This document shows, one piece after another, positions 8,266 to 55,162 of a stretch of DNA of 64,000 nucleotides. How positions within the stretch are numbered: position 1 is the first letter of the stretch; each line of letters opens with the position of its first letter. The stretch is from Macrotis lagotis (lineage: Eukaryota > Chordata > Mammalia > Peramelemorphia > Peramelidae). A model generated the notes under the pieces. That model made no database searches. It was not told the DNA's origin and worked only from the letters and a program-made list of their open reading frames with translations. The translations under genes and the position numbers were made by a program. The stretch spans positions 203,026,685-203,090,684 of the forward strand of contig NC_133662.1 of NCBI RefSeq assembly GCF_037893015.1, in the 5' to 3' direction.

Positions 8266-8472
8266 AAATTTTTATGTATTTGCACATTATTAAAAGTCTT
8301 GTGTAAGAGTAAACATAATCTCCCCTCCACCTCCACCCTCAAAAATAAAAAAAAAAAACACCTCATGAGAAATAAAGTGAAAGAAAGAGAAAAAAATGTA
8401 TTTCAGTTTGTGTTCTGATTCCATCAGCTCTATCTTGGGTGAATCACATTCTTCAACATAAGTCCATCAAAG

Positions 8473-8484
8473 AAGTAACTTCCA
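8473..8484 (+). repeat. Target-site duplication, left copy, of the U6-L1 chimera
   Basis: AAGTAACTTCCA directly abuts the first base of U6. The right copy AAGTTACTTCCA is at 10955-10966, directly after the A-rich tail; one mismatch in twelve. The same site without an insertion is visible in copy H2 near 23033-23044. Confidence 0.9.
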
Positions 8485-8591
8485 GTGCTCACTTCAGCAG
8501 CACATATACTAAAATTGGAACAATACAGAGAAGATTAGCATGGCCCCTGCACAAGGATGACTCGCAAATTCGTGAAATGCTCCATATTTTT
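8485..8591 (+). ncRNA. RNU6: U6 snRNA retrocopy, the 5' half of a U6-L1 chimera
   Basis: A complete 107-base U6 spliceosomal snRNA sequence, from GTGCTC to the terminal CCATATTTTT. It keeps the 'tactaaaattggaa' segment, the ACAGAGA box (8525-8531) and the catalytic AGC triad region ('gattagcatggcccctg'). I count about eight differences from the canonical mammalian sequence as I recall it, several of them CpG-to-CpA/TpG changes typical of a methylated, non-functional copy. Upstream lies HAL1 sequence, not a U6 promoter with PSE and TATA. The last T of U6 is joined directly to L1 sequence in the same orientation, so this is a template-switch product and almost certainly a pseudogene. Confidence 0.93.
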
Positions 8592-10954
8592 AAATCATAT
8601 GATCATATCAATAGATGCTGAAAAAGCTTTTGACAAAATACAGCATCCATTCCTATGTAAAACACTAGAGAGTGTAGGAATAAATGGACTGTTCCTTAAA
8701 ATAATTAACAGTATCTATCTGAAACCATCAACAAGCATTATATTCAATGGGGAGAGGCTAGAGGCATTCCCAATAAGATCAGGGGTGAAAAAAGGGTGCC
8801 CATTATCACCACTACTATTCAATATTGTATTAGAAATGTTAGCTTCAGCAATTAGAGAAGAAAAAGAAATTAAAGGAATTAGAATTGGGAAGGAAGAGAC
8901 AAAACTCTCACTCTTTGCAGATGACATCATGATCTACCTAGAGAATCCCAATAAATCATCTAAAAAACTACTGGAAACAATTAGCAATTTTAGCAAATTT
9001 GCAGGTTATAAAATAAACCCTCATAAATCCTCAACTTTTCTATATATGTCTAGCAAGAAATAGCAGGAAGAGCTAGAAAGAGAAATCCCATTCAAAGTAA
9101 CCTCAGACAATATAAAATATTTGGGAGTCTATTTGCCAAGACAGTCTCAGAATCTTTTTGAAAACAATTATAAAACACTCGGCAAATATCAACTGCTCAT
9201 GGATAGGTAGAGCTAATATAATAAAAATGATAATTCTACCAAAACTGAACTATCTGTTTAGTGCCCTACCAATCAAAATTCCAAAAAAATTACTTTAACA
9301 AGTAAGAAAAAATTGTAAGTAAATTCATATGGAGAAATAAAAAGTCAAGAATTGCCAGGAGCTTAATGAAAAAAAGTGCAAAAGAAGGTGGCTTAGCCCT
9401 ACCTGATCTAAAATTATATTATAAAGCATCAGTCATCAAAACTGTGTGGTACTGGCTAAGAAATAGAGTGGTGGACCAGTGGAATAGACTAGTTGTAAAA
9501 GCAGGAGATGATTATAGTAATCTGCTGTTTGATAAACCCAAAGAGTCTGACCATTGGGATAAAAACTCCCTCTTTGATAAAAATTGCTGGGATAATTGGA
9601 AGTTAGTATGGAAGAAACTTAGATTAGACCAACACCTCACACCCTTTACCAAGAGAAGATCCAAATGGTTACAGAACATAGACATAAAAAACAATGCTAT
9701 AAGCAAATTAGAAGATCAAGGACTAGTCTACCTGTCAGATCTATGGAAAGGGGAACAGTTTATGACTAAGGAAGAGTTGGAGAACATCACCAAAAACCAA
9801 TTAGATGATTTTGATTACATTAAATTAAAAAGCTTTTGCACAGATAAAACCAATGTAACCAAGATCAAAAGAAATGTAGTAAATTGGGAAATAATCTTTA
9901 CAACTAATGATTCTGACAAAGGACTCATTTCTAAAATATACAGAGAACTGAGTCATATTTTTAAAACAAAAAGCCATCTCCCAATTGATAAATCTTTAAA
10001 GGATATGCAAAAGCAATTTACAGATGAGGAGATCAAAATAATCCATAGCCATATGAAAAAATGCTCTAAATCATTAATTATTAGAGAAATGCAAAGTAAA
10101 GCTTCTCTGACCTCTCAGATTGGCCAGTATAACCAGGAAGGATAATGATCATTGTTGGAAGGGATGTGGGAAATCTGGGACACTATTACACTGTTGGTGG
10201 AGCTGTGAACTCATCCAACCCTTCTGGAGAGCTATTTGGAACTATGCCCAAAGGGCAACAAAAATGTGCATACCCTTTGACCCAGCAATACCACTACTGG
10301 GTCTATACCCTGAAGAGATGAGGAAAAAGGGTAAAAACATTACTTGTACAAACATATTTATAGCAGCCCTGTTTGTGGTGGTAAAGAACTGGAAATCCAG
10401 TAAATGTCCTTCAACTGGGGAATGGCTTAGCAAACTGTGGTATATGTATGTCATGGAACACTATTGTTCTATTAGAAACCAGGAGGGATGGGATTTCAGG
10501 GAAACCTGGAGGGATTTGCATGAACTGATGCTGAGTGAGATGAGCAGAACCAGAAAAACACTGTACACCCTAACAGCAACATAGGAGTGATGTTCAACCT
10601 TGAAGGACTTGCTCACTCCATCAGTGCAACAATTGAGAACAATTTTGGGCTGTCTGCAAAGGAAAGCACCATCTGTATCCAGCTAAGGAGCTGTGGAGTT
10701 TGAACAAAGTGCAAGGACTATTCACTTTAATTTTAGAAAAAAAAATAGATAGCTTATTGTCTGATCTTGTTACCTCTTAGACTTCTCTTCTCTTTAAGGA
10801 TATGATTTCTCTCTCATCACACCCAATTTGGATCAAGGTACAACATGGAAACAAAGTAAAGACCGACAGAGTACTTTCGGGGGGAAGCAAGATTGGGGGA
10901 ATTTTGTAAAACTGAAATAATATCTTTAATAAAAATAAATTTAAATTAAAAAAA
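8592..10954 (+). mobile_element. 5'-truncated L1 (ORF2 RT core to 3' UTR), the 3' half of the U6-L1 chimera
   Basis: It begins inside the ORF2 reverse transcriptase at AAATCATATGATCATATC. The first frame (to 9063) holds [12 protein letters not shown], the [16 protein letters not shown] segment and the catalytic F-A-D-D box (near 8918-8929). Later frames (9366-10145 and 10120-10584) hold the C-terminal half, including the Cys-rich 'CWKGCGKSGTLLHCWWSC' zone and the terminal 'MLSEMSRTRKTLY' segment. A few frameshifts and stops separate them. The 3' UTR ends with GGGGGAAGCAAGATTGGG and an A-rich tail. This is one of the best-preserved L1 pieces in the window. The polymerase activity it represents is the one that could have copied U6, HAL1 and SINE RNAs. 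Confidence 0.92.
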
Positions 10955-11079
10955 AAGTTACTTCCATATTTTTCCACAGTTGCTGTTGCTTATTGTAATT
11001 CCCTCCATCCATTCTTCCCCACTACCATCTATTATGTTCTCTCTCTGCTTTCACTATGTCCCTCTTCAAAAATGTGTTG

Positions 11080-11215
11080 TGGGACAGCCAAGTGGAGCCG
11101 AGACCCCAAGCCTATATCCCCCACCCCCACCCCAAGACTCAGTAACCACCCAGTCCTGTGGTCCCAGATAGGCCATCCAATCCCATCACCTTGCAAATAG
11201 TAAATATCATATCTT
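11080..11215 (+). mobile_element. SINE module C inside HAL1 copy H3 (antisense to HAL1)
   Basis: Decayed tRNA-SINE: GGGACAGCCAAGTGGAGCCG, 'aagactcagtaaccacccagtcctgtggtcccagataggcc', 'atcccatcaccttgcaaatag'. It occupies the same place as the module at 23147-23300 in copy H2 and is absent at the matching place in H4. Confidence 0.65.
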
Positions 11216-11324
11216 ACTATCTTCTTCCATGATCTACCCTCTCCTCTGTCCCCTATATCCCCACTCCCCTCATCTCCTTTTTCCCATCCCCTTTATCTCC
11301 TTTTTGGTCTAGAATTCTATGCCT

Positions 11325-11330
<6 letters not shown>

Positions 11331-11377
<47 letters not shown>
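11331..11377. repeat. (CA)n microsatellite
   Basis: Uninterrupted alternating AC run of about 47 bases in the 3' region of HAL1 copy H3. Confidence 0.97.
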
Positions 11378-11382
<5 letters not shown>

Positions 11383-11739
11383 AAAGGTATGTATGCATAT
11401 ATGTTGTTTCCTTTCTGAGTCTTTTCTGATGAGAATGAAAGCTCCCTTAACCCCTCACTTCACCACTTCCATACCATTGCAAAAGCTATTTCTTGACTCT
11501 TACATAAAATATCTTAGGCTATTCTACCTCTCCTTTCCTTTCTCTTAGTACATTTCCTTTTCACCCATTAACTCCAATTGAAAAATATAATATACCTTCT
11601 AATTAGGCTCTCTCCTGTGTCTTGACTATAAAAGCTTCTTTTAACTGCTCTAATAAATAAGGTTCATATGAGTATTATCAGTATATCTTCTCATGAAGGA
11701 ATGCATTCAGTTCATCATCATTAGATCCATTATAATTTA

Positions 11740-12812
11740 CCCTTTCTCATCTACCCTCTTTATGTTTCACCTGCGTCTTGTATTTGGAGATCAAACTTTC
11801 TGTTCAGCTCTGGTTGTTTCAATAGGAACATTTGAAATTCCCATGTTTCATTGAAAGTCCATTTTTCCCCTCTGAAAGAGGATGTTCAGTTTTGCTGAGT
11901 AGTTGATTCTCAGTTGAATTCCAAGTTCTTTTGCCTTCTAGAATATTATATTCCAAGTCCTATGAGCCTCTATTGTGGATTTTGCTAAATCCTGTGTTAT
12001 CCTGACTGCAGCTCCATGATATTTGAATTTTTTTGTTCTGTAGTATTTTCTCTTTGACTTGGGAGTTCTGAAATTTGGCTATAATATTCCCAGGATTTGG
12101 GGTTTTGGGTTCTCTTTCAATAGGAGATCGGTGGATTCTCTCAATTTCTATTTTGCCACCATTTCTAGGATATTCAGACAATTTTCCTGAAGAAATTCTT
12201 TCAAAATGAAGTCAAGGATCTTTTCCTGATCATGACTTTCAAGTATCCTAATAATTTTTAAATTGTCTCTTCTGGATCTGTTTTCCATATCCATTGTTTT
12301 TTTTCTTTGAGAAATTTCACCTTTTCTTCTAGTTTTTTATTCTTTCAATATTGTTTTATTATGTTTTGATTCCTCATAGTCATCAACTTCCTTTAGCTCC
12401 ATTCCTCATTGAAGGATTAGCTTTCCTCAGAGAGCTTTTGCATCTCCTTTTCCATCTAGCAATTCTGCTATTTAATATATTTTCCTCCTCATTAACTTTT
12501 TGAACTGTTTTTTACATTTGACCTAAACTAGTTTTTAGCATGTTATTTTCTTCAGCATTTTTTGGATCTCCTTGACTAAATTGTTGAGGTGGTTTCCATG
12601 TTTTTCCTGCATCTCCCTCATTTCTCTCCCCAATTTTTCCTCTACCTCCCTTACTTGATTTTCAAAATATTTTTTGAGCTCTGAAATAGTGTGATGCCAA
12701 CTCCTATGTTTCTTGGAGGATTTAGATGCAGAAACTTGAACTTTATCATCTTCTGAGTATGTGTATTGATCCTCCATGGGATCAAAGTAATTGTTTATGG
12801 TCAGGTTCATTT
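11740..12812 (-). pseudogene. HAL1 copy H3 ORF1 relic
   Basis: Minus-strand remnant of an L1-type ORF1 (RNA-binding nucleic-acid chaperone). The N-terminus at 12810 begins MNLTINNYFDPMEDQ and enters a charged, heptad-rich region with V-E-E-K-L-G-R-E-M-R-E-M-Q-E-K, the start of the ORF1 coiled coil that drives trimer formation. Later parts are recognisable only piecemeal (11960-12181 holds the E-R-I-H-R-S-P motif and 'NIIAKFQNSQVKEKILQ', the RRM/C-terminal area). Several stops and frameshifts separate the parts. No ORF2 follows, as expected for HAL1. Confidence 0.7.
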
Positions 12813-13597
12813 TTTCTGTTTTCTCATTTCCCTAGGCTGTTCCCTGGTTTGGGGGTACTTCCTGAGCTTTTGAGTATTATTGGAACACCCTTGCAAGGAC
12901 CTCAGTTCCTTCAAGGTCTTATGACTGCTCTCCTGGTCTGTGCTCTTGTCTGTGAAAGAACACAAGCCCTCCCCTCTGCCCTGGGACTATGAGGAAGATT
13001 CTTGCTCTGTAACAATAGGTGGTCCCAGACTATGACCAGGGTCTGGATATGGACAAAACACCAGAGGAGAGCCCTCGATAGTCTCCCCCACCCCCTAACT
13101 TTTGTGGGCTGAGCCCTCTGCAAGCAGCTGCAAGGTGGCTCCCTGCTGGGCAGGCCTGCTTCCATTTCCTGGGATGTGGGTTGTACTGGCTGCAGTGATG
13201 TGAGGAGGGCCATGCTGGCCTGGGCTTTGTGCTAGCTCTGGAAGAGGTTTCCCCCTGATCTTCCAAGTTGTGGTTGGTGTTCCCTGGGCTGCAGGTCAGG
13301 AAACTGCTTCTGCTGCTAGGAGCCAGTACTCCCTGGAACTCAGGCACCCAGAAGAATGGAACTGCTTCACTCTGGTGCAATATTCCTGGCTGTGCTGCTA
13401 CCCCCTCTACCCCCATGGAACAGAGCTTTCCCAAGATCTTCCAGGTTACCTTGGGCTGGAGAATTGTCTCACTGGACCTTTCTGTGGGTTCTGTCTCTTG
13501 AAAATTTAGTTAGAACCTTAATTTTAAGGTTTTTGTAATATTTTGGAGAGAACTCCTAGGAAAGGCCATTCTCGTGCCACCATCTTGGCTCTGCCCC

Positions 13598-14440
13598 TGT
13601 CTAATTGCATTTTTAAAGAATTTATTTTCTTCAGTTAATTTTTGTGTTTCCTGTAGCAAGCTGTTGAATTTACTTTGCATTTCTTTTCCCATTTTAAAAC
13701 TTGATTTTTAAAATACTTTTTGAGATCTTTCAAGAAACTTTTTTGAACTGGTGACCAATTAATATCCCCCTCTTTGGATTCACATGTATTACTTTTTCTT
13801 CCATTCTCATCTGAGATGGTTTTGTGCTCTTCCTTATGTTCATAGTAGCTCTCTATAGTCCCAACTTTTCTCTGATTTTTCTTACCCATTTTGAGCTTTA
13901 CTTTTGGACCAGAGGGGCACTATCCCAAGCTCTTTATGTTGGGGAGGGATCCACTAGTAAATCTACCACATTGAGATCACTAGTGGCTTGCTTACTGAAC
14001 TGGAGTTGTCCAAAGCAGGACCCCCTACATTGAGAATGCTAGCATCTTACTCATTGAACTAGGAACTTCTTTGTTGAGAACACTAACAATTTGCTCACTG
14101 GGATGGGCCTTCTAGTCCAGTCACAACAACTAAAGAGAAGATCTGATGTACCTATGTTGGATCCTTTCAAACTGGTTTGCTGTGCCACTGTGACTGGGAA
14201 CCTCTGCTTGACCTAAACTACAATTTGTCTCAGCTGAATTGGGCTCCCTGACCTGGGCTCCAACTTCCTGCTCCTTGACACACTCCCACTCTGCCCTAGT
14301 GAGGTAGACCTTGTTCTTTCATGAGTTCTGTCATTCCAGAATCCATTTAAAGAGTTGATTAACATTGTTTCTGAGTGAAGCACAGAACTTATGGAAGTCC
14401 CTGGCTATGATCTTCCTCGCATCTCTCCCCCTCACCCCCA
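13598..14440 (-). mobile_element. Old L1, 5' side (ORF1 N-terminal half and 5' UTR)
   Basis: It resumes the ORF1 interrupted at 8265. 'attttctgtagca' type coiled-coil sequence (13620-13760) leads to the N-terminus near 13889 (M-G-K-K-N-Q-R-K-V), then a GC-richer 5' UTR with 'gaccagaggggcac' and repeated 'cattgagatcact'-like phrases to about 14440. Dead copy, host of HAL1 H3. Confidence 0.65.
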
Positions 14441-14577
14441 ACCATGAATACTTTTTCTTAACAAATTTATTTTTTAATAAATACAGAAAATGGTAGTACT
14501 AGTGAGTTCCTTCTGGAATCATCTCCTAATTGTTTTACATAAATTTTGTTTGTACATTTCTCTTGCACAATTTTCCC

Positions 14578-14680: not shown

Positions 14681-14764
14681 ACTCAAATGACTCCCTATAG
14701 TTATCTTGTATATGTGTAAATATATGAATATTAGGACTGAAGAAGTTCTTGAATTCATTGAATG

Positions 14765-22225: not shown

Positions 22226-22603
22226 TTTTACACTATTGTTCATTAAGTATGTTATTTTCTTTTTTGTTAATCTAGGATGTTTGTAATTTTGTAAATATTC
22301 ATTCATTTCATTCAGGTTATCAAAATTATTGGCATAGAGTTTGGCAAAGTAATTCTGAATTATCTCTTTAATTTCTTCCTCATCAGGGTTAGTTCACCCT
22401 TCTAATTTTTTTTCCTCCTATATTTGTTTTTATTTTTTCTTTTAATTCTCATTTTGTACAAATGTTTTTTTACATTAATAAAATATTCTTGTTTAAGAGT
22501 AAACAAAATAACCCTCCCCCCCATGAATATAGACTTGCTTGGGCGATAAAGTAAAGGGGAGAGAAAAAAATTAAAATTAAAAAAAATAATAGTAATAATT
22601 GTA

Positions 22604-22758
22604 GTTATGGCCAGGTGGCCCAATGGGCAAAGCACCAGCCCTGAAGCCACAAGCACCCGAGCCCACATCCAGCCCTGTAGAGCCAACAATCACCCAGCTG
22701 TGTGACATGCAAGCCACCTGGTCCCCACTGCCCTGCAAAAACCAAAAAGAAGAAAAAA
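22604..22758 (+). mobile_element. SINE module A inside HAL1 H2 (antisense to HAL1)
   Basis: 'gttatggccaggtggcccaatggg', 'caccagccctgaagccacaag', 'cacccagctgtgtgacatgcaagcc', 'ccactgccctgcaaaaacc' and an A-rich tail. Its counterpart in H1 is about 36583-36718. It is absent from H3 and H4, where the flanking HAL1 sequence is continuous. Confidence 0.85.
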
Positions 22759-22792
22759 AAGACCCAAAATAATATAAAACAGTAATAAGAGT

Positions 22793-22955
22793 AGGGGTGG
22801 CTGGGTGGCAGACAAAGCATTGGCCCTTGAGCCAGGAACACCCGGGTCCAAATCCAGCCTCAGACACCCAAAGATCACCCTGCTATGTGGCCCCAGGCAG
22901 GCCACCCAGCCCCATTTGCCCTGCACCCTCCCCCAAATAATAATAATAATAAAAA
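22793..22955 (+). mobile_element. SINE module B inside HAL1 H2 (antisense to HAL1)
   Basis: 'aggggtggctgggtggcagac', 'gccaggaacacccgggtccaaatccagcctcagacac', 'ccctgctatgtggccccaggcaggccac', 'cccatttgccctgc', ending in an AAT repeat. The B box GGGTCCAAATCC is well kept. Its H1 counterpart is about 36388-36545. Confidence 0.88.
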
Positions 22956-23146
22956 ATGTGCTTCAGTCTTTGTTCCAACACCATCAACTCTGTCATGGGT
23001 GGATCGCATTCTTTATGGTAAGCCCATCGCAAAAGTTACTTCCATATTTTTCCAACATTGCCATTGCTGATAGCAACTCCCTCCTTTCTTATTTCTCCAC
23101 TACCATGTACTATATTTTCTCTCTCCTTTCACTCTGACTCTGCTTT

Positions 23147-23300
23147 AGGGTCACTGAGTGGTGCAGCAGACAGATCCCTGGTCCTGGGGCCAAGAAGCCC
23201 TGAGCCCCCATACCACCCCTTAGACCCAGAATCCACCTGGCCGTATGGTCCTGGACAGGCCTTCCAATCCCAACCCCTTGCAAGAAGTAAAAAAGAAAAT
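23147..23300 (+). mobile_element. SINE module C inside HAL1 H2 (antisense to HAL1)
   Basis: 'agggtcactgagtggtgcagc', 'ccctggtcctggggcc', 'agaatccacctggccgtatggtcctggacaggcc', 'ccccttgcaagaagtaaaaaag'. This is the module nearest ORF1 and the only one also present in H3 (11080-11215). Its H1 counterpart is about 36040-36195. Confidence 0.82.
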
Positions 23301-23775
23301 ATGTTATATCTGACCACTCTCCCCCCGCCCCATGGTCCATCCTCTCCTCCTTTATTCACATCCCTACCCCTTCCCCCTGCTCTCCCCTCCTTCTTACTCC
23401 AGATGCCTATACCCCATTGAATATATATGCTGTTTCCTCTCCTAGCCACCTCTGATAAGAGCAAAGGTTCCCTCATTCCCCCTTGCCTCCCCCCTTCCAT
23501 ATCATTGCAATAGCTCATTGTAATAAGAAAAAATCTTATTATATGTAATATCTTGGCCTATTCCACATATCCTTTTTCTTTCTCCCATTACATTTCCCTT
23601 TTTTTTATATAGACTCCATTTTTACACCATATTTTATCTTTGAATTCAGCTTTCTCCTGGGCTTCAACTATAAAAGCTTCCTCTACCTGCTCTATTAACT
23701 GAGAAGGTTTATATAAGTATTATCAGTGTCATTTTTCTATGCAGGAATACATGCAGTTCATCCTCATTAAGTCCC

Positions 23776-24891
23776 TCATATTTCCCCCCTCTCCTCCAAT
23801 CTCCATGCTTCACCTGAGTCTTGTATCTGAAGATCAAACCTTCTGTTCAGCTCTGGCCATTTCAAAAGGAACATTTGAAATTCCCCTGGTTCATTGAAAG
23901 TCCATCTTTTTTCCTGGAAGAGGACATTCAGCCTTGCTGGGTAGTTCATTCTTGGCTGCATTCTAAGCTCTTTTGCCTTCTGGTATATTACATTCCAAGC
24001 CCTGTGAGCTTCCAATGTAGTTGCTGCTAAGTCCTGTGTGATCCTGACTGCAGCTCCACGATATTTTAACTGTGTCCTTCGGGCTGCTTGTAATATTTTC
24101 TCTTTGACTTCAGAGTTCTGGAACTTGGCTGTAATATTCCTAGGGGGTGTTTTTTTGGGATCTCTTTCTCAGGGGGGATCTGTGGATTCTCTCCATTTCT
24201 ATTTTGTCCTCTGCTTCTAGGATATCAGGGCAATTTTCCTGTAGTAATTCTTTGAAAATGATGTCAAGACTGTTTTCCTGATCATGACTTGCAGGTATTC
24301 CAATAATTTTTAAATTATCTTTCCTAAGACTGTTTTCCATATCAGTTGTTTTTTCAATGAGATATTTCACATTTTCTTCTAATTTTTCATTTTTTTGGTT
24401 TTGAAGTATTGATTCCTGATTTCTGGTAAATTCATCAATCTCCCTGAATTCTATTCTTTGTCTGAAGGATTTGTTCTCCTCAGAGAGTTTTCTTATCTCT
24501 TTTTCCATCTGGCCAATTTTGCTTTTTAAGGCATCCTTCTCCTCAATAACTTTTTGAACTGTTTTATCCATTTGACCTAAGCTGGTTTTTAGTATGCTAT
24601 TGTCTTCAGCATTTTTTTGGATTTCCATGACTAAGATGTTGACTTCATTTTCATGTTTTTCCTGCATCTCTCTCCTTTCTTTTCCCAGTTTTTCTTCCAA
24701 CTCCCTCATTTGATTTTCAAAGTCTTTTTTGAGCTCTGTCATAGCCTGAACCCAATTTCTGTTTTTTTCTTGGAGTCTTTAGATGCAGGAGCTTGTGCTT
24801 CCTCATCTTCAGACTGAGTATTTTGATCCTTCTTGGGCTCATAGGCAAAGTATTTCTCAATAGTCTTCCTCTTGCTTCTCTGTTTGCTCAT
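23776..24891 (-). pseudogene. HAL1 H2 ORF1, broken
   Basis: L1-type ORF1p homologue. The start at 24891 is equivalent to the ATG of H1. The coiled-coil region (best piece 24140-24742) is rich in heptads, for example E-L-E-E-K-L-G-K-E-R-R-E-M-Q, and is followed by the RRM-like core 'IIGIPASHDQ' and E-R-I-H-R-S-P. A frameshift near 24140 separates this from the C-terminal domain (23776-24015, 'PARLNVLF..KRW', ending in R-G-E-I). Another shift lies near 24745. The family protein binds L1 RNA in trimers. This copy cannot encode the full product. It is close to the H1 protein over the shared parts. Confidence 0.82.
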
Positions 24892-25628
24892 CTTCCCAGC
24901 CTGGGCCTGGTTTGGGGGTGCTTCCTGAGCTTTTGGGACACTCCCACAAGGGTCTCAGTGTGTGAGGCTCTGTTCTTCCTCCTGGTCTGTGAATGACCAT
25001 AAGCTCCCCTCTCTGCCACGGGGCTGAGGTGGGGGGTGCACTGCTGTTCTGTGTGTGGACCTAGAACTGCTATCACTATCTGAATGTGGTCAGAGCCCCA
25101 GAGTCCTATTCCAGCCTTAGAAGACAGAGCTCTGCAATCTCTCTTCACTCCCCTCCCTCAGCTCAATGGGATCATGCCCTGGGGGCTCCTGCTTACTGGC
25201 TCTGCCTGCTTCTGTTTCAGGATCTGCACTGCTGAAAGACCAAGCTGCTGGCTGTGTGCCCTGAGGGCTGGGCTCCACATGCTGACTCTGGCAGAGGTCC
25301 TCTGCTGTTCCCCCACTTTGTGCCGGTGCTCCCCGGGGTGCAGCTCAGGAGATTCCCCCGCTGCTGCAAGCCATGGTTCCCAGCGCCTTGGGGCTGCCTC
25401 CGGGAGGCTGAAGTTCTTTCGCTCTGGTGGGCCACCCCTCTGGTGGGCAGCCCCTCCAACCCCAGGGAGCAGAGCCTTTCTGCTCTTTTCCAGGTTACCT
25501 TGAGTAGGAGAACTGCCTCGCTGGATTCCTTTGTGGGTTCTGTCTCTTGAAAATTTAGTCCTTAGTTTCAAGTGTTATCAGAGAGCACCTATGACTTGAT
25601 CCCTTATTGTCACCATCTTGGCTCCGCC
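24892..25628 (-). promoter_or_regulatory. HAL1 H2 5' UTR, likely internal promoter region
   Basis: GC- and CpG-richer than its surroundings, it begins with GGCGGAGCCAAGATGG, the place where L1-class elements carry their internal RNA polymerase II promoter. Short overlapping open frames on both strands are by-products of the composition. Promoter function is inferred from the family, not seen. Confidence 0.5.
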
Positions 25629-28600: not shown

Positions 28601-29532
28601 TGAATCAAGTAGATCATTGTTTCCTAATATATGCTTTACATTTTCTTCTATCTTTTAGCCTTTTGATTTTGTTTAGTAGAATCTGGGTGTCTCCTAGAGT
28701 CATTAGTTTCTATTTGTCCAATTCTAATGTTTTAAGGGTTTATTTTCTTCACTTAGCTTCTGTAATTCCTTTCTCAGGAGATTAATCATAGATGAGTTGT
28801 TATCTTTTACTTGTTGATTAATTTTACTTTTTCAAGAGTTACATTCCTTTTCCAGTTGGTCAATTTCATTTTTAAGTATATTATTTTCTTCAGTTGATTT
28901 TTGATATTTCTCCTGTATGACTCTCATTTCTTTTCTCCATTTTTCTTCTTCCTCACTTCTTTGGTTTTAAAAATTCTTTTTGACCTCTTCCAAGAGCTAG
29001 ATTTGAAACCAATTCAAAAACCTATTTGAAGTTTGATATGCAGGCATTTTGTCATTGCTTTCCTCCTCTGAGATGTTTTTGTCATCCTTCTTATAATAGC
29101 AACATTTTATGGTTTGAATTTATTTTTCTTTTTACTATTTTGGTAGTTGAAGTCTGCTCTTGTGACAAAGAAGTCATAGTCCTTAAGTCTTTTTATGTTT
29201 GGCCCTCATTTACTGCTTGCCTTTGAGGTTGAGTATGGTTTTTCAGGTGCTAGAGGTGTTTTCCTTGCATTAGTTTAGTCCATTTCATTCCTGCATGTTG
29301 CTCAGTGTTCCTGGGGCTTGAACTTTGTTTTGCAAAATGGAGCTGGCAAGCCTCAATGTTGGTCTGCTGCACTGCTGGCTTGTTGACCCAGGATCTGAAC
29401 TGCATTATTGCTAAACGCCTCTCCCTGGCTTTTCAGCTCTCCTGCCTTAGCTAGGCTATGATCCCCGTGTTACCCAAGTGACCTTTATTGAAGTTTCTCC
29501 ATGACATCTTGAATAGAGAGCTTATTTTACTG

Positions 29533-32477: not shown

Positions 32478-34469
32478 AGTCATACAGTTTTGTAAGACTT
32501 AAATTTAAAGCTATTCTTGATTACAATTTATTCAAACCCCATACCTTATAATAGAACTTTTAAAAAAAGGTAGGAAGGGTAGCATAACCAAGATGTCAAA
32601 AGCAGGGAATTCCCTTAGTTCTCCCCTAAACCCCTTTAAATAACAACTCTAAACAAATTTTAGAGTGGTAGTACCCACAACAAGAAGAAAGGAAACAATT
32701 TTTCTGACCCAAGACAAGTTAGAAGGTCAGTAGGAAAGGACTACTGTAGCAGAATGATAAAAGAGTGCAAAAGAGAGCACACCAGTGCAGACTAGCTCCC
32801 AGCACTTGAGGAACAGGCTACAGGGCAATTGAATTATGGTGGCAGTGGTAGTTTCCAGACTTGTTAGATCACAGATGCCAAAGACAACTTAGAAAGTCTG
32901 GATAAAAGGTCTGTCACACCTGGGTTAAATCAAATCAGAGTCTAGTGAAGGACATGGCAGCCCAGCCCTAGTCAACCAGAAACAGGCCTTGAATCAGCAG
33001 AGATGGAAGTAATTTCCTGAGCTCTCTGATCATAGATCGTAAAGGTGTTGGAAAGAGAGACAAGGGGACTTTTTGCTATCATTGAGGCAGGACTCTGTTA
33101 CTTTTTCTATACTTTGTTCTGGATCTAAGTACAGTAAGAGGAAGAGAGGTAGCACAGGGGAAAGGGCAAAATTTTGGGGCAGAAAAGATGTTTGTAGTCA
33201 CTAATAGACTAGAGCATAAGCCAGGAGAGGAGGAAACACACTTCTTCTTAGACTGTGACTGACCTGACCTAAAACCTTGCAGATCCCTAGAAGGATCTCT
33301 GAAAATAACTGCACCAAATTCCTAAAGGTTGGGAGAGTATACTCTGCAAACTGGAAGCAGAGCTCTACTATAACAGAGTTAAAATAAAGTTATAGATTCA
33401 GAAAATGAACCAAGAGAAAGAAACAAACTAAAAAACTTCAACAAAAAACTCAGAAAAACAATTAAAAAACCCACAAAAATCATCACCCTCTGTTCACTAT
33501 GTTTCTATGGAGGCAAAAATGATCAAAATTCATAACCAGAAGTGTATAACAAAGTCAAAGCTTCTCCATCTCAAGGCTCCAAGAAAAATATGCATGGATT
33601 TCACATCATGGAACAATTCAAAAAGAATTTTGAAAATCAAGTAAGAGAGGTAGAGGTAAAATTGGGAAGGGAAGTGAAAGTGATGTAAGAAAATCATGGC
33701 TGAGGGGCAGAGCCAAGACGGTGACATGAAGGGATTGAGTCTTAGGAGCTCTCTGATAAAAACTCATAAACTAAGGACTCTTAACTAAACTTTCGAGAGA
33801 CAGAACCCACAAAGGGGGTTCCTACTCAAGGTAACCTGGAAAAGAGCAGAAAGGCTCTGCTCCCCGGGTTGGAGGGGCGGCCCGCTGGAGGGGTGGCCAC
33901 CAGAGCCAAAGAACTTCAGCCTCCTGGAGGCAACCCCAGGGCGCTGGGAGCCGCAGCTCACAGCAGCGGGGGAGTCTCCTGGGCTGCACCCCAGGGAGCA
34001 CCGGGCACAAAGTGGGGGAACAGTGGGTGACCTCTGCCAGAGCGAGCATGTGGAGCCCAGCCCTGAGGGCACACAGCCAGCGGGCTGCCTCTGGAACCCA
34101 GGGAGCCAGCAGCTTGGTCTTTCAGCAGCCTAGACCCCGAAACAGAAGCAGGCAGAGCCGATAAGCAGGAGCCCCCAGGTCATGAGCCCATTGAGCTGAG
34201 GGAGGGGAGTGAAGAGAGAAAGACTGCCCAGCTCTGTCCTCTGCCCCTGGAACAGGACTCTGGGGCTCTGACCACATTCAGATCCTGATCCCAGTCTAGG
34301 CCCCCCCCATAGAACAACAGGGCCCTCCTCACCTCAGCCCCATAGCAGAGGGGGGTGCTTATGGTCATTTACAGACCAGGAGGGAGGACAGAACCTCACA
34401 CACTGAGACCCTTGTGGGAGTGCCCCAAAAGCTCAAGAAGCACCCCCAAAACAGGCTTAGGTTGGGAAA

Positions 34470-35580
34470 ATGAACAAGCAAAGAAACAAGAGGAAGACCA
34501 TTGAGAAATATTTTGCAAATGAGCCCAAGAAGGATCAAAATACTCAGTCTGAAGATGAGGAAGCACAAGGTCCTGCATCTAAAGACTCCAAGAAAAACAG
34601 AAATTGGGTTCAGGCTATGATAGAGCTCAAAAAAGACTTTGACAATCAAATGAGGGAGTTGGAAGAAAAACTGGGAAAAGAAAGGAGAGAGATGCAGGAA
34701 AAACATGAAAATGAAGTTAGCAGCTTACTCAAGGAAATCCAAAAAAACTGAAGAAAATAGCATGCTAAAAACCAGCTTAGGTCAAATGGATAAAACAGTT
34801 CAAAAAGTTATTGAGGAGAAGAATGCTTTAAAAAACAAAATTGGCCAGATGGAAAAAGAGATAAGAAAACTCTCTGAGGAGAACAAATCCTTCAGACAAA
34901 GAATAGAATTCAGGGAGATTGATGAATTTACCAGAAATTAGGAATCAATACTTCAAAACCAAAAAAATGAAAAATTAGAAGAAAATGTGAAATATCTCAT
35001 TGAAAAAACAACTGATATGGAAAACAGACTTAGAAAAGATAATTTGAAAATTATTGGAATACCTGAAAGTCATGATCAGGAAAAGAGCCTTGGCATCATT
35101 TTCAAAGAATTACTACAGGAAAATTGCCCTGATATTCTAGAAGCAGAGGGCAAAATAGAAATGGAGAGAATCCACCGATCCCCCCGAGAAAGAGATCCCA
35201 AAAAACCAACCCCTAGGAATATTATAGCCAAGTTCCAGAACTCCCAGGTCAAAGAGAAAATATTACAAGCAGCCAGAAGGCCACAGTTCAAATATTGTGG
35301 AGCTGCAGTCAGGATCACACAGGACTTAGCAGCAACTACAGTGGAAGCTCATAGGGCTTGGAATACAATGTATCGGAAGGCAAAAGAGCTTAGAATGCAG
35401 CCAAGAATGAACTACCCAGCAAGGCTGAACGTCCTCTTCCAGGGAAAAAGATGGACTTTCAATGAACCAGGGGAATTTCAAAGGTTCCTTTTGGAATGGC
35501 CAGAGCTGAACAAAAGGTTTGATCTTCAGATACAGGACTCAGGTGAAGCATGGAGATTGGAAGAGAGGAGGGAAATATGA
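34470..35580 (+). pseudogene. HAL1 H1 ORF1, nearly intact
   Basis: L1-type ORF1p homologue of about 370 codons. It starts M-N-K-Q-R-N-K-R-K-T and has a low-complexity acidic N-terminus, a long coiled coil ('ELEEKLGKERREMQEKHE', then 'IGQMEKEIRKLSEENKSF'), an RRM-like core ('LKIIGIPESHDQ', 'EMERIHRSP') and a C-terminal domain ('NIIAKFQNSQVKEKILQAA', 'PARLNVLFQGKRWTF') ending R-R-E-I. Two lesions are visible: a frameshift near 34740 and an in-frame TAG at 34939-34941. Everything after 34987 is open. Family role: RNA binding and chaperoning in the retrotransposition particle; a HAL1 must borrow ORF2p from L1. Confidence 0.87.
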
Positions 35581-36039
35581 GGGACTTAATGAGGATGAAC
35601 TGCATGTATAGAAAAATGACACTGATAATATTCATATGAACCATCTCAGTTAATAGAGCAGGTAGAGGGAGCTTTTATAGTTGAAGCCCAGGAGAAAGCT
35701 GAATTCGAAGATAAAATATGCTGTAAAAATGTAGTCAATAGGAAAAAAAAGGGAAATGGAATGGGAGAAAGAAAAAGGAGAGGGGGAATAGTCCAAGATA
35801 TTTCACATAATAAGATTTTTTTATTACAATGAGCTATTGCAATGATATGGAAGGGGGGAGGCAAGGGGGAATGAGGGAACCTTTGCTCTCATCAGAGATG
35901 GCTAGGAGAGGAAACAGCAAATATACTCAATGGGGTATAGACAACTGGAGTAAGAGGGAGGGGGGAGCAGGGGGAAGGGTTGGGGATGTGAATAAAGGAG
36001 GAGAGGATGGACCATGGGGGGAGAGTGGTCAGATATAAC

Positions 36040-36195
36040 ACATTTTCTTTTTTACATCTTGCAAGGCGCTGGGATTGGAAGGCCTGTCCAGGACCATAGG
36101 ACCAAGTGGATTCTTGGCCTAAGGGGTGGTATGGGGGCTCAGGGCTTCTTGGCCCCAGGACCAGGGATCTGTCTGCTGTGCCACTCAGTGACCCT
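36040..36195 (-). mobile_element. SINE module C inside HAL1 H1
   Basis: 'tttttacatcttgcaaggcgctgggattggaaggcctgtccaggaccatagg' to 'gtctgctgtgccactcagtgaccct'. Same place, orientation and divergence pattern as the module at 23147-23300 in H2. Confidence 0.82.
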
Positions 36196-36387
36196 ACAGC
36201 AGAGTCAGAGTGAAAGGAGAGAGAAAATATAGTACATGGTAGTGGAGAAATAAGAAAGGAGGGAGCTGCAATCAGCAATGGCAATGGTGGAAAAATATGG
36301 AAGTAATTTTGTGATGGACTTATCATAAAGAATGTGATCCACCCAGGACAGAGTTGATGGTGTTGGAACAAAGACTGAAGCACATTT

Positions 36388-36545
36388 TTTATTATTATTA
36401 TTTTGGGTAGGGTGCAGGGCAGGTGGGGCTGGGTGGCCTGCCTGGGGCCACATAGCAGGGTGATCTTTGGGTGTCTGGTGCCGGATTCAGACCCAGGTGC
36501 TCCTGGCTCAAGGACCATTGCTCTGTTTGCCACCCATCCACCCCT
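36388..36545 (-). mobile_element. SINE module B inside HAL1 H1
   Basis: The ATT repeat, then 'ggtgcagggcaggtggggctgggtggcctgcctggggccacatagcagggtgatctttgggtgtctgg' to 'gctctgtttgccacccatccacccc'. Counterpart of 22793-22955 in H2. Confidence 0.85.
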
Positions 36546-36582
36546 GCTATTATTACTATTTTATTTTATTTGGGGTCTTTTT

Positions 36583-36718
36583 TTTTCTTCTTTTTGGTGG
36601 GGATTGGGTGGCATGCATGTCACATGGCTGGGTGATTATTGGGTTTACGATGGATATGGACTCGGGTGCTCATGTCTCCAGGGCTGGTGCTTCGTCCGTT
36701 GTGCCACCTGGCCATTGC
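36583..36718 (-). mobile_element. SINE module A inside HAL1 H1
   Basis: 'tttttttttcttctttttggtggggattgggtggcatgcatgtcacatggctgggtgatta' to 'tccgttgtgccacctggccattgc'. Counterpart of 22604-22758 in H2. Confidence 0.83.
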
Positions 36719-37530
36719 TACAATTATTACTATTATTTTTTCAATTTTAATTTTTTTTCTCTCCCCTTTACTTTTTCGCCCAAGCAAGTCTATTTATATT
36801 CAGGGTGAGAGGGTTATTTTGTTTACTTGTAAACAAGTATATTTTATTAATGTAAAAAAATATTTCTACAAAATGAGAATAAAAAATAAATTAAAAAAAA
36901 GAAAATCATGAAAAATAAATTAACATTTGGTAAAGTAGTCACAAAAAATCCTGAAAAAAAATAACTCCTTAAAAAGCAGATTAAGTCAAATTGTAAAAGA
37001 GGTACAAAAAGTCAATGAGGAGAATGCTTTAAAATGTAGAATTGGTTAAGTGGAAAAAGCAACGCAAAAATTTTCTCAAAAGAAAAAAAAATCTCCTTAA
37101 AAAGTTAAATTGTTCGAATGGAAAAAGAGATACAAAAGTTAACTGGATCATTAAAAATCAGAATTGAGTAAATGGAAGCTAATGACCCTAAGAAATCAAG
37201 AAACAAAACCAAAACACTAGAGTGAAAAAAAAGAAGGCAATGTGAAATATCTCATTGCCAAAGTAATTTACCTGGAAAATAGATCCAGAAGAGAAAACTT
37301 AAAAATTATTGGATACTACAAAAGCCATGATAAAAAAATAGCCTAGACATAATCTTTCAAGAAATTATCAAGAAAAACATTCCATAAATTCTAGAAGGAG
37401 AGAGTAAAATAGAAACTGAAAGAATTTACTCATTACCTCCAAAAGGAGATGTCCCAAATGAAAACTCTCATGAATATTATAACCAAATTCCAGGGCTTCC
37501 AGATCAGGGAGAAAATATTAAAAGCAGCAT

Positions 37531-37584
37531 GTATCTATCTATATGTACATGTACATGTACATGTATATGTATATGTACATGTAC

Positions 37585-37628
<44 letters not shown>

Positions 37629-37728
37629 ATCTCTATATCATCTATATCTATATCTATATCTATATCTATATCTATATCTATATCTATATCTATATCTATA
37701 TCTATATCTATATCTATATCTATATTAT
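37531..37728. repeat. Compound microsatellite (TGTACA/TGTATA)n then (TATATC)n
   Basis: 37539-37626 alternates TGTACA and TGTATA hexamers, then a short bridge, then about sixteen TATATC/CTATAT hexamers. Open frames in all six readings here are repeat artefacts. Confidence 0.97.
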
Positions 37729-37735
37729 ATTTCAT

Positions 37736-41845: not shown

Positions 41846-41850
<5 letters not shown>

Positions 41851-44933: not shown

Positions 44934-47900
44934 CATGATTTCTTATAGAACAATAGTTATCCATCATATTCATATACATAATTTGTTCACCCAGTTGATG
45001 GACATCCATTTATTTTCCAAACCTTTATCACTACAAAAAGAATTTTTATGAATATTTTTGCACATGAGTGTCTTTCCCCCCTTTTTGTAATCTCTTTGAG
45101 ATATAGACTTAGTAGTGGTATTGTTGGATCAAAGGCAATGAACATTTTTATTGTCCTTTGGGCATAATCCAAATTGCTCTCCAGAATGGTTGGATCAGTT
45201 CACAACTTCACCAATAATGAATTAATGTCCCAGATTTCCCACATCCCATTCAACATTGATCATTATCCTTTCTGGTTATATTGTTCAATCTCAGAAGTGT
45301 GAAGTGATACCTCAGAGATGCCTTAATTTGCATTTCTATAATCAATAATGTTTTAGAGCAATTTTTTATATGACTATAGCTTTTATTTCCTTATCTGAAA
45401 ATTGCCTTTGCATAGATATGCAAAGATATATGATCATTTGTCATTTGGGGAATGATTTGTTTTTGTTTTTTAAATTTGACTCAGTTCTCTCTATATTTTA
45501 TTCCCTTTTCAGAAAATAAACTTATAAAATAATTGTTTCCCAATTTAGGACATTTCTTTTGATCTTGGTTACAGTGGTTTTGTTTGTGTAATAGCTTTTT
45601 AATTTGATGTAATCAAAATTATCCTGTTTGTTTTTTATGGTGTTCTCTATATCCTTCTTGGTCATAAACTGCTGGCCATTTCGTAGATCTGATAGGTAAA
45701 CTATTCATTGTTTCCTTAATTTGCTTATAATATTGTCTTTTAAGTCTCAGCCATGCACCCATTTTGATCTTATCTTGGAATTGGGTGTGAAATTCTGGTC
45801 TAACCCTAGTTTATACCATACTGTCTTTTGGTTTTCCCAGCAGTTTTTATTGAAGAGTGAGTTAACACAGGAGTTGTATTCTTTGGGTTACTATAATTAC
45901 TGTAATCATTTTCTACTGTCTCTTTTGCACATTATCTATTCCACTGATCCACCACTCTATTTCTTAGCCAGTTCTGGACAGTTTTGATGTCTGATGCTTT
46001 ATAATAAAATTTTAGATCTGGTAAGGCTAAAATCTTTTGCAATTTTTCTTAAATCCCTAGATATTCTTGACTTTTTGTTTTTCCATATAAATTTAATTAC
46101 TATTTTTTCTAGCTCACTAAAGTAATATTTGGTAAGTTTGATTGGTATGACACTGAATAAGTAGTTTAATTTAGATAGAATTATTTTTACTATGTTAGCT
46201 CGACCTATCCATGAGTAGTATTTACCTAGTTGTTTGTGTGAAAAGTGTTTTATAATTGTTTTCATAGAGCTATCAAGTTATTTTAAATGGAATTTCTCTT
46301 TTTAACTTTTGTTACTGTATCTTGTTAGTTTCATATAAAAATGGTGAGGATTAATGTGGATTTATTTTATGTCCTGTGAGTTTGCTAAAGTTGCTAATTA
46401 TTTCCAATAGTTATTTTTGATGAATTTTTAGGGTTCTCTAGGAATACCATTATATCATCTGCAAAGATTGAAAGTTGTGTTTCTTCATTCCCACTTTTAA
46501 TTCCTTCAATTTCTTCTCTTCTCTTAGTGCTAAAGCTAACATTTCTAATACAATATTGAATAGTAGTGGTAATAATGGACATCCTTCTTTCACCCCTTAT
46601 CTTAGTGGGAATGTTTCTAGCTTATCCCCATTGCATATAATGCATGTTGATGGTTTCAGATAGATTGATAGAAAAGCTTTTTCAGCAACTATTGAGATAA
46701 TCATATGATTTTTGCTAGGTTTGTTATTGATATAGTCCATTATGTTAGCAGTTTCCTAATATTGAACCAACCTTGCATTCCTGGAATAAATCCTGCTTGG
46801 TCCTAGTGTACTGTCCTAGTGATAACTTGCTGCAATCACTTTGCTAATATTTTATTTAAGATTTTTACATCCATATTCATTACAGAGATTGATCTATAAT
46901 TTTTTCTCTTGTTTGACTCTTCCTGGTTTAAGTATCAACACAATATTAGTGTCATAGAAGGAATTACATAGAGTTCCATCTTCACCTATTTTTCCACATT
47001 GTTTATATAGAGTTGGAACAAATTGTTCTTTGAATGTTTGATAGAATTCCCTTGTGAATCCATCTGACCCTGGAGCTTTGTTCTTCTGGTGTTCATTAAT
47101 GGTTTGTTGAATTTCTTTTTTCTGTGACACGTTATTTAATTATTTTATTTCCTCTTCATTTAACCAGGGCAAATTATATTTTTGTAAATATTCATCCTTT
47201 CATTTATATTACCAAATTTATTGGCATACAGTCAGGTAAAATAATTACAAATTATTACTTTAATTTCTTCCTCATTGTTGATGTATTTACCCTTTTCAAT
47301 TTTGATAACTACCAATTTGGTTTTCTTTCATTTTATAAATCACGTTATCCAAAGGTTTATCCATTTTATTCATTTTTTTTTCATAAAACCAACTCCTGGT
47401 TGTATTTATAAGCTCAATAGTTTTCTTGTTTTTTTTTATTTTTTTTAATTTCTCCTTTATTTTTCAGAATTTATAACTTGGTATTTAATTGGGAGTTTTA
47501 ATTTGCTCTTTCTCTAAATTTTTTATTTGCATGCTCAGTTCATTCATTTCCTCTTTCTCTATTTTATTCATTTAAGTATTTAAAGATATAGTATATCCCC
47601 TAATAACTGCTTTGACTGGATCTCATAAGATTTGGTATGTCATTTCATTATTGTCATTGACGTGGTTGAAATCATTATTTTTTTCTATGATTTATTGTTT
47701 GATCCACTCATTCTTTAAAATGAGGTTATTTAGTTTCCAATTAGTTTTAGGTTTATCTCTACATGCCACTTTATTTCACTTGATTTTTAATTGCATCATG
47801 GTCTGAAAAGCATGTATTCAATATTTTGGCCTTTCTGCTATTGATTATAAGATTTTTTTGGCCTAGTGCATGGTCAATTTTTGTGCAGGTGATATGTCCT

Positions 47901-48676: not shown

Positions 48677-48678
<2 letters not shown>

Positions 48679-48713: not shown

Positions 48714-48715
<2 letters not shown>

Positions 48716-52157: not shown

Positions 52158-52219
<62 letters not shown>

Positions 52220-53039: not shown

Positions 53040-53155
53040 AGATTATTTTGTTTTATGTATTAGTTTGATAGTTTTCTTACCTTCAATTTTATTAATTCCT
53101 TCTTTGATTTTCAGAGTTTCTTAGTTGGTTTTTAATTAACGATTTTTTAATATCG
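53040..53155 (-). mobile_element. L1 ORF2 linker scrap
   Basis: 'gtattagtttgatagttttcttaccttcaattttattaattccttctttgattttcagagtttcttagttgg' matches the linker antisense at 25740-25830 and 58000-58080. Confidence 0.65.
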
Positions 53156-53289
53156 AAAAGTAGTTTAATATTTCATGCATTTAATACTCAAATAAGAATA
53201 CAAAAGTAGATTGTGTTATGAAAGTTTTAAATATTAATGAAAAATGTTAAATAATACCTGACAAAAACAAAGTCTAAGAAATTTCTATA

Positions 53290-55162
53290 TTGCTTCTTTT
53301 TTATTTTATATTATTACAATAATCTTCTTATGAGAGGAAACTTAATCCCCCCACCTTGCTCCAAGAAGATGAGAAACCTCAAGAATACTGAGAAAGAAAA
53401 ACATATACTTCAGTCTGTGTTCAGATTCCAATGGCTCTGTCTTTGGGTTGAGTTGCCTTCTTAACATAAGTCTACCAGAGAAGCTGCTTTAATATTTCTC
53501 CCACAGTTGCTATTACAAGCTGTATTTCCTTCCACTCTATTCCTCCCCACTCTCATTTATTCTATTCTCTCTCTTCTTTCATCCTGTTGCTGTCCAAAAT
53601 TGTGGTATCTGAGTACCATCTCTGACAATCTTCCCTCTTCTTCTATCACCTATCCCCCCCCTTCCTTCCCCCACATTCCCCCTTATCCCATCCCTTTCTT
53701 CTCATTTTTCTCTAGGGTAAGATAGATTTCTGTACCCTATTAAGTGTATATTCTGATGAAAATGAAGGCTCACTCATTCCTACTCACCTTCCTTCATTGC
53801 ACTCCACTGAAAAATCTTTTACTTGACTCACATGAAGTATCTTAGTTCCCTCTTCCTCTCCTTTATCTTCCTCCCAGTACTTTCCTATATCATCAGTTGA
53901 CTCTATCTTTTTACTATATTATACTATTATAATCTGCTCCTTCCTGTGTCCTGTCTATTTATGCTCCTTCTAACAACTCTTATAAATGAGAAAGTTCATG
54001 AGTTATCAATATTTTCTTTCTGTGCAAAATACAAACAGTTCAACATCATCAAGATCCTCATAGTTAGTCCTTCTTGTTCATCCCCTCTCTGGTTGACCAG
54101 AGTCATGTACTTGAAGATCAAACTTTCTGTTAAGCATTGGTTGTTTCAATAGGAAAGTTTGAAAGTCTCCTGCTCCATTAAAAGTCCATCTTTTTCCCTG
54201 AAAGAGGATATTCAGTTTTTCTGGGAAGTTTATTCTTGGTTGTAAATCAAGATCTTTTGCCTTCTGGAATATCATACTCCAATCCCTATGAGTCCTTAAT
54301 TTGCTGCCAGATCCTATGTAATCCTGACTATAGAGCCATAGTAGTTGGAGTATTTGTTTCTGGAAGCTTTTAGCATTTTCTCTTTGACTTGGGAGTTTTA
54401 GAATTTGGCTATAACATTCCTGGAAGTTTTTATTTTGGGTTCTCTTTCAGGAGGTAACTAGTGAATTCCCTCAATTTTTATTTTACCCTCTGCTTTTAGG
54501 ATCTCAGGGAAATTTTGTTGTACTATTTCTTGAAAAATGAAGCCTAAGCTCTTTTGCTGGTTGTGACTTTCAGGTAGCCCAATAATTTTTAATTTATTTC
54601 TTCTAGATCTGTTTTTGAGGTCAGTTGTATTTTCAATGAGATCTTTCACATTGTCTTCTATTTTTTTGGCTTTTTTGGAAGAATTTTATTTCTTCCTGAT
54701 TTCTTGTAAAGTCATCAGCTTCTTTTGGTTCCATTCTGCATTTGAAGCAGTGAGCTTTTTCAAGCATTCTTCTCCTGATTTGCCTTTTGTTTTACTTTTT
54801 CCACTTGCCCTAAACTGTTTTTTTTTTTATGTTTGCAAGGCAAAAGGGGTTATGTTTCCAGGGCGGGTGCTTTATCCACTACACCACCTAGCCGCCCCCC
54901 CCACCCTAAATTGTTTTTTAACATAATATTTTCTTCTGTGGGTTTTTTTTTTTGGTTTTTCGCCAAACTGCTGATTTGGTTTTCATGATTTATCTGCATT
55001 TTTCTCATTTCTCCTCCTAATTTTTCCTCCACCTCCGTTAATTGCTTTTCAAAGTCTTTTTTTGAGCTCATCCATAGTCTGGGCTCAATTTCAATTTCTC
55101 TTAGATGCTTTGTATACAGAAGCTTTGAGATTGTCTTCTTCTGAATCTTCCATGGGACTAAA
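53290..55162 (-). mobile_element. HAL1 (half-LINE) copy H4, without SINE modules in its 3' region
   Basis: Left end: 3' region 'gagaggaaacttaatccccccacc...aaaaacatatacttcagtctgtgttcagattccaatggctctgtc', colinear with H3 (8310-8440) and H2. Then 'tgttgctgtccaaaattgtggtatctgagtaccatctctgac' runs straight through where H3, H2 and H1 have SINE module C. ORF1 relic at 54078-55160 ('MIFQKAKDLDLQPRINFPEKLNILFQGKRW', 'LKIIGLPESHNQQ', 'VEEKLGGEMRKMQ'). The 5' UTR is missing; an LTR-like piece follows. Confidence 0.78.
54824..54903 (-). mobile_element. Internally deleted SINE with TSD
   Basis: The tail end 'ttatgtttgcaaggcaaaaggggtta' is joined directly to the head end 'ttccagggcgggtgctttatccactacaccacctagccgcccc', so the middle (about half the SINE, including the B box) is gone. 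The TSD is CCCTAAACTGTTTTTT (54808-54823) versus CCCTAAATTGTTTTTT (54904-54919). Confidence 0.82.

Follow-up and report, generated by a model that had tools for sequence, protein, structure and literature searches.

How do four HAL1 copies in one stretch of the Macrotis lagotis genome come to carry three, three, one and no SINE modules in their 3' UTRs (H1, H2, H3 and H4, respectively)? HAL1 (half-L1) is said to go back to Bao and Jurka in 2010. The window, that is the whole stretch analysed, spans 64,000 nt (GCF_037893015.1, NC_133662.1 203,026,685-203,090,684), and the comparison covers four HAL1 copies. H1 (33699..36898, + strand) and H2 (22411..25628, - strand) are full-length elements with modules C, B and A and lie within an older L1-type ORF1 and an older L1, respectively. 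H3 (8266..13597, - strand) has module C alone and extends from 8266 to 13597 because a U6/L1 chimera (8485-10954) sits inside it and splits it, and H4 (53290..55162, - strand) is 5'-truncated with empty module sites. We favour, at a probability of about 0.9, a history in which a HAL1 took up SINE C by TPRT and passed it on, the line of H1 and H2 later gained A and B, and L1 trans-mobilised the composite.

Excerpts of two accounts describe HAL1 elements as L1-derived, with ORF1 only, an A-rich tail and TSDs, and as dependent on the L1 machinery (PMC5753468, PMC5322556). The ORF1 remnants of H1 (34470..35580, + strand) occupy frames at 34470-34751, 34705-34941 and 34987-35580, the last of which has L1 RBD-like and dsRBD-like domains and matches PF02994 (48.5 bits) and PF17490 (24.7 bits) over 34987-35577, as an L1-type ORF1 should; the named relatives of H1 ORF1 are mostly marsupial L1 RRM-domain proteins. 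Five H1 sense frames within 35829-36908 gave no Pfam match at E 1 in a search run without a positive control, BLAST found no match between H1 and those frames of the U6/L1 chimera (8592-10584) that were assigned to ORF2 by eye, and, judged from its sequence, H1 probably lacks ORF2, as expected of a HAL1. TSDs and an A-rich tail are clear in H1 and H2 and decayed in H3.

Modules were placed by alignment of the four 3' UTRs and by profile search, in which they are clearly homologous to the stand-alone SINEs of the window. By profile search, and with strands given for the SINE, H1 holds module C at 36054..36196, B at 36407..36545 and A at 36591..36719 (all -), and H2 holds A at 22603..22743, B at 22793..22931 and C at 23146..23288 (all +). 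The single module of H3 has a profile envelope at 11072..11201 (+), with the SINE head at about 11081, and shares only 62-63% identity with the C modules of H1 and H2. All seven modules are antisense to the host HAL1 and its ORF1. The A/B site is uninterrupted in H3, within 8360-8425, and both the A/B and the C sites are uninterrupted in H4. A preliminary description had reported tRNA-type modules in these numbers, with C, B and A at matching antisense sites in H1 and H2, C alone and a continuous A/B flank in H3, and no interruption at the module sites of H4, and the alignment and profile search agree with it on these points. H4 also bears a sense SINE fragment of its own within ORF1 (54820-54899, profile search) and is thus not SINE-free. 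ARAGORN reported no tRNA in the window, and a SINE pattern search returned no match in either a viral or a genome contig set.

H1 is flanked by the TSD AAGAAAATCATG (left copy 33687..33698, right copy 36899-36910), and H2 by CACCCTTCTAATTTTT and CACCCTTCTACTTTTT (22395..22410 and 25629-25644), which differ by one mismatch. The TSD of H3 is decayed (8247-8267 and 13598-13618, 15/21 matching), and inspection by eye showed none for H4, which is 5'-truncated. As a chance control, pairs of 40-nt segments drawn at random from the window had an exact 12-mer in common in 28 of 20000 trials. When flanks were joined, L1-type sequence crossed both the H1 and the H2 insertion points; for H3 and H4, flanks joined in this way had no match spanning the junction. 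H1 and H2 are 91.9% identical and oppositely oriented, as they would be if one segmental (inverted) duplication had produced both, and independent insertion of modules into identical sites would be a further way to their likeness. Both ideas are scarcely credible, since H1 and H2 are separate insertions by their different TSDs and their two different older L1-type host elements, and since both carry three modules at the same sites and on the same strand. The preliminary description had likewise argued against a segmental duplication.

Module C has a 12-bp TSD of its own (AAAATGTGTTRT), one copy of which survives in H3 (upstream, 11069..11080, +) and the other in H2 (downstream, 23296..23307, +) and H1 (36035-36046), and the corresponding site in H4 is empty. 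Across copies the TSD reads AAAATGTGTTGT / AAAATGTGTTAT, an 11/12 match that was reached by 11 of 20000 random stretches, and module C thus behaves as a single TPRT insertion event. No TSD could be pinned for modules A and B. Site patterns among the four copies separate H1 and H2 from H3 and H4 at 168 sites, vs 5 and 7 for the other two splits, and K2P distances are 0.086 (H1-H2), 0.36 (H1-H3) and 0.44 (H1-H4). The copy tree agrees with the distribution of modules among H1-H4. Between H1 and H2, module C (0.070) is close to the flank (0.086), and modules A (0.180) and B (0.123) exceed it, perhaps through CpG decay.

Shared module sites, the TSDs, the nesting in different older elements and the copy tree support capture of SINEs and their inheritance by a HAL1 lineage. 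A marsupial HAL1, L1-derived and with ORF1 but without ORF2, would have gained, by L1-type TPRT, the tRNA-type SINE C in antisense orientation within its 3' UTR; this copy would have turned into a source and carried C into its descendants H3, H1 and H2, and the line ancestral to H1 and H2 would later have gained A and B, which adjoin each other near the 3' end. We infer that transcription of the composite began at the element's own 5' end and that the RNA was bound by the ORF1p it encoded and inserted by an L1 enzyme in trans, with which the form of the TSDs agrees; the SINE parts would be its passengers. H4 would retain the ancestral state. The composite half-LINE/SINE retrotransposon proposed in the preliminary description is thus borne out by the shared sites, the TSD of C, the TSDs of H1 and H2 and the copy tree. 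Of the stepwise capture from none to one to three modules proposed there, capture and inheritance stand on the sites, TSDs and tree, and the order 0-1-3 has one copy each for its states 0 and 1. The locus would then present a non-autonomous LINE growing stepwise into a composite, with copies bearing no, one and three modules preserved together.

The preliminary description had also proposed as many as three antisense pol III promoters, and here the modules disagree: their boxes are decayed, and none of the seven has A and B boxes both intact. A complete A box (11/11) is present in four modules and lacking in three (both B modules and C of H3), and a complete B box (9/9) is present in none. Among the nine stand-alone SINEs of the window, three have the complete A box, two the complete B box and none both. 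The module SINEs are unlikely to be pol III genes at the present day.

About half of the SINE T positions are C in all seven modules (A replaced by G in the sense of the HAL1 RNA), vs only 3-13% in the nine stand-alone SINEs. In modules A, B and C of H2 taken together, T>C was counted at 51/97, vs C>T at 8/94 and A>G at 16/97, and the HAL1 flanks show no comparable bias (A>G 45/527, G>A 29/237, p 0.11). GC-biased gene conversion alone was rejected as the cause, given the strand specificity of the bias. Nothing tested here explains the bias. One candidate, tentative and short of an even chance, is that the modules stem from a T-poor SINE subfamily to which none of the nine stand-alone copies belongs. 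Some ten T sites read C in almost all modules, and conversions are shared between A and B (15 sites in both, 7 in neither, 5 in A only, 0 in B only, p 0.0009); outside T-before-G sites, however, sharing does not exceed chance (p 0.24, 1 and 1, in small tables), so the shared sites are those expected near saturation. Certain conversions are confined to a single module, and conversion still reaches 50-61% at sites where C is absent from every stand-alone copy. Moreover, at alignment column 84, in the B box, all eight stand-alone copies with a letter there have T and all seven modules have C, a change that presumably weakens pol III transcription of a source. Such a subfamily accounts for the bias in part at most.

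ADAR-type editing, in which the antisense SINE in HAL1 RNA would pair with sense SINE RNA and the deaminated adenosines would be reverse transcribed into new sources, strikes us as somewhat unlikely. The A-to-G changes are clustered and on one strand, as in ADAR hyperediting; they are restricted to the modules, absent from the flank, and present in modules of two or three separate captures. H1 and H2 also disagree (C/T) at 10/51 converted sites vs 5/81 kept C sites (p 0.024), as if conversion had continued past their split. According to an excerpt of one account, ADAR disfavours adenosines with a 5' G relative to those with a 5' A, C or U (PMC8586724), whereas here conversion after G (25/34) was as frequent as after U (37/53) or after A (28/39), and the low rate after C (20/70), contrary to that rule, is explicable by CpG decay. 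The H1 3' UTR holds no exact 12-mer inverted repeat, and a partner RNA must therefore come from elsewhere. ADAR-like editing fits in part, matching the strand and the boundaries and breaking the 5'-neighbour rule.

Selection on HAL1 RNA, for adenine removal or for G runs (G-quadruplexes, avoidance of splice sites or stop codons, a coding frame), is quite unlikely. Mean G4Hunter scores are raised in the seven modules (0.27-0.84, vs -0.10 for the antisense consensus), but GGG runs were not more numerous than under random placement of equal changes in any of the seven (permutation, P 0.10 to 0.80), and for the mean score itself P was 0.052 in C of H3 and lay between 0.16 and 0.69 in the remaining modules. 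T was converted no more often when followed by A than when followed by T or C, and conversion of A was similar before G (40/65) and before A (35/52). Sense frames do cross modules in both H1 and H2 (in C, for example, 72 and 76 aa) and correspond partly between the two copies; those of 213 aa (H1) and 110 aa (H2) do not. Changes between H1 and H2 at codon positions 1/2/3 number 5/4/3, 12/10/14, 4/8/7 and 9/5/6 in four frames through modules, without a third-position pattern, vs 1/3/6 in one 66-codon ORF1 stretch used as a control. In protein searches, a module frame of 213 aa (E up to 0.1) and another of 129 aa (E up to 1) returned no relatives, and a sub-threshold MobI Pfam match in one H2 frame (E 0.3) was taken as chance.

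It is a doubtful conjecture that a strand-specific A-to-G process rewrote every SINE that the HAL1 lineage captured in antisense, only where HAL1 RNA could pair with abundant host SINE RNA, and that retrotransposition fixed the edits. If true, the modules would preserve, in fossil form, RNA editing as a driver of retrotransposon evolution, and, if confirmed genome-wide, the A-to-G bias of the passengers would offer a natural test of whether RNA editing durably marks retrotransposons.

H1-H3 have the same L1-derived, ORF1-only plan, A-rich tail and TSDs as described HAL1 elements, and differ from them in having a 3' UTR with one or three SINEs in antisense, which the excerpts of those accounts do not mention (PMC5753468, PMC5322556). 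Compared by description only, and with an excerpt of the source, the modules resemble the short CORE-SINEs of marsupials (WSINE1, SINE1_Mdo type) in their tRNA-related head, short body and A-rich tail, but are fixed within HAL1, decayed in their boxes and T-depleted (PMC3403934). As excerpted, SVA and other composite non-LTR elements likewise join unrelated repeats that L1 copies as a unit; the SVA parts (Alu, VNTR, HERVK10) lack an L1 ORF1, whereas here a coding half-LINE is the chassis, with the SINEs embedded in its 3' UTR (PMC5753468). L1 template-switching chimeras, in the excerpts of two accounts, also combine L1 with small pol III RNAs, but there the RNA is joined to L1 in one insertion event, whereas module C has its own TSD and therefore entered a DNA copy (PMC13174262, PMC4476161).

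BLAST of H1 against the window placed the 3' UTR of HAL1 (half-L1) at four sites: H1 (33699-36898, +), H2 (22411-25628, -), H3 (8266-13597, -) and H4 (53290-55162, -). H1 and H2, at 3.2 kb, are full-length copies; H3 shares their 5' end and is broken by a U6/L1 chimera, and H4 is 5' truncated. H1 retains an L1 ORF1 in broken frames, with RBD-like and dsRBD-like domains, followed by a 3' UTR of approximately 1.3 kb; five sense frames of H1 across 35829-36908 gave no Pfam match. The H1 ORF1 fragment returned 36 matches, the named organisms being Vombatus, Notamacropus, Monodelphis and Macrotis lagotis (two matches, 74% identity over 33% of the query and 86% over 19%), plus one Bacteroidales MAG label taken as host DNA. 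Because these named relatives are nearly all marsupial, so is the window. H1 is nested inside an older L1-type ORF1 (33514-37528, +), directly past which lies a TATGTA six-base array (37536-37730, 32.5 copies).

Alignment of the 3' UTRs revealed tRNA-type SINE blocks, or modules, numbering three in H1 (C 36054-36196, B 36407-36545, A 36591-36719), three in H2 (A 22603-22743, B 22793-22931, C 23146-23288), one in H3 (C 11072-11201) and zero in H4. All seven are antisense to their own HAL1, and their order is constant, with C closest to ORF1, B next and A at the 3' end. A SINE profile built from the seven blocks and run on the window scored the modules at 80-126 bits and picked up nine stand-alone copies of this SINE type at 18-79 bits (near 16944, 30178, 16632, 7900, 32320, 30505, 43346, 54897 and 2259); three more matches (E 0.55, 5.1 and 9.5) were discarded as chance. 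The observation made in the preliminary description is right. The ORF1 part of H4 holds a SINE with an internal deletion (54820-54899, -) in the sense direction of HAL1, and the profile found no SINE at the matching place in H1-H3.

The module C target site duplication (TSD) is readable upstream of the SINE in H3 (AAAATGTGTTGT, 11069-11080) and downstream of it in H1 (AAAATGTGTTAT, 36035-36046, reverse complement) and H2 (AAAATATGTTAT, 23296-23307), the first copy being lost in H1/H2, and H4 is continuous through the site, reading AAAATTGTGGTATC. Module C is therefore best read, from these sequences, as one TPRT event predating the split of H3 from H1/H2. AT-rich repeats by the module A and B junctions obscure their TSDs. 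H1 and H2 were inserted separately, as their own TSDs differ and L1-type sequence reads across both joined flanks, those of H1 matching 12436-12771 and 28859-28995 and those of H2 matching four L1 copies (534-1151, 39135-39500, 47136-47778 and 57754-58183); the joined flanks of H3 and of H4 matched nothing across the junction. H1 and H2 nonetheless share all three modules, at matching places. With the modules excised, K2P distances are 0.086 (H1-H2), 0.36 (H1-H3 and H2-H3), 0.38 (H3-H4) and 0.44-0.45 (H4 to H1/H2), and 168 site patterns group H1+H2 against H3+H4, the two alternative groupings having 5 and 7. This tree, unrooted and with one copy each for the states of zero and one module, fits the proposed gain of C and later, singly or as a pair, of A and B.

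TSDs, shared sites and tree together make a composite HAL1/SINE element well supported on four copies, but its supposed corollary of up to three antisense pol III promoters is not supported. SINEs were scored with A-box and B-box patterns that are our assumption. The A box is complete (11/11) in four of seven modules, both B modules and the H3 C module falling short, and the top B-box matches reach 6 to 8 of 9, so that no module has a complete B box. Among the stand-alone SINEs, three of nine have an 11/11 A box, two a 9/9 B box and none both. Given these decayed boxes, antisense pol III transcription from the modules is unlikely today, a judgement that concerns the present and not the time of capture.

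The aspect most deserving pursuit is unexpected: the captured SINEs have lost A on one strand. Taking the consensus of the nine stand-alone SINEs as reference, each module has C at 50-64% of the T positions (3-10% in the stand-alone SINEs), with C>T at 3-19%. Pairwise alignment to the consensus gave T>C at 15/33 to 19/32 in six modules, 12/19 in the H3 C module (67 bases aligned) and 1/33 to 4/32 in the stand-alone SINEs; using two single stand-alone SINEs as references left the picture unchanged. As A>G on the SINE strand is only 10-25%, the bias is one-stranded and amounts to A>G changes in the RNA of HAL1. Parsimony assigns to the three module stems 38 T>C changes (17 on later branches), 5 C>T (6), 12 A>G (8), 14 G>A (17) and 13 transversions (38). 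The HAL1 flank around the modules, counted at sites with H1=H2 and H3=H4 and with direction taken from H3=H4 (unrooted), showed no bias (A>G 45/527, G>A 29/237, p 0.11); sites across modules and copies are non-independent, and p values serve as guides only.

Conversion in at least one copy reached 11 of 32 site-by-module cases for T before G and 47 of 55 for other T; either the CpG formed there decayed back or such sites were spared. A T-poor SINE subfamily could account for the converted sites that every module has, but modules share sites no more often than by chance once T-before-G sites are excluded, and all seven modules have C in place of the B-box T, which would be odd in a source transcribed by pol III. 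Editing of HAL1 RNA by ADAR agrees with the strand and boundaries of the bias. ADAR is known to avoid A after G (PMC8586724), yet 25 of 34 such sites were converted; at one of them, column 138, three stand-alone SINEs have C, which may already have been the state of the source SINE. Selection for G runs was unsupported by test, and frames through the modules lacked a coding pattern. ADAR-like editing and a subfamily origin combined with some later process rank close together, and neither is offered as shown.

An endogenous retrovirus (about 58190-64000, -), apparently located in an L1, extends beyond the window with open frames of up to 843 aa that by eye are env-, pol- and protease-like; a 24-nt tandem repeat (60796-60862, 2.8 copies) lies within its long pol-like frame. 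Among the matches listed in the open-licence full-text literature, no title or abstract opening concerned a SINE-bearing HAL1, and the lineage may be catalogued in Repbase or Dfam. The chimera within H3 (8473-10966, +; TSD AAGTAACTTCCA / AAGTTACTTCCA) joins a complete U6 (8485-8591, Rfam 113.5 bits) to a 5'-truncated L1 with long frames that by eye are ORF2-like, and is of a known type (PMC4476161).
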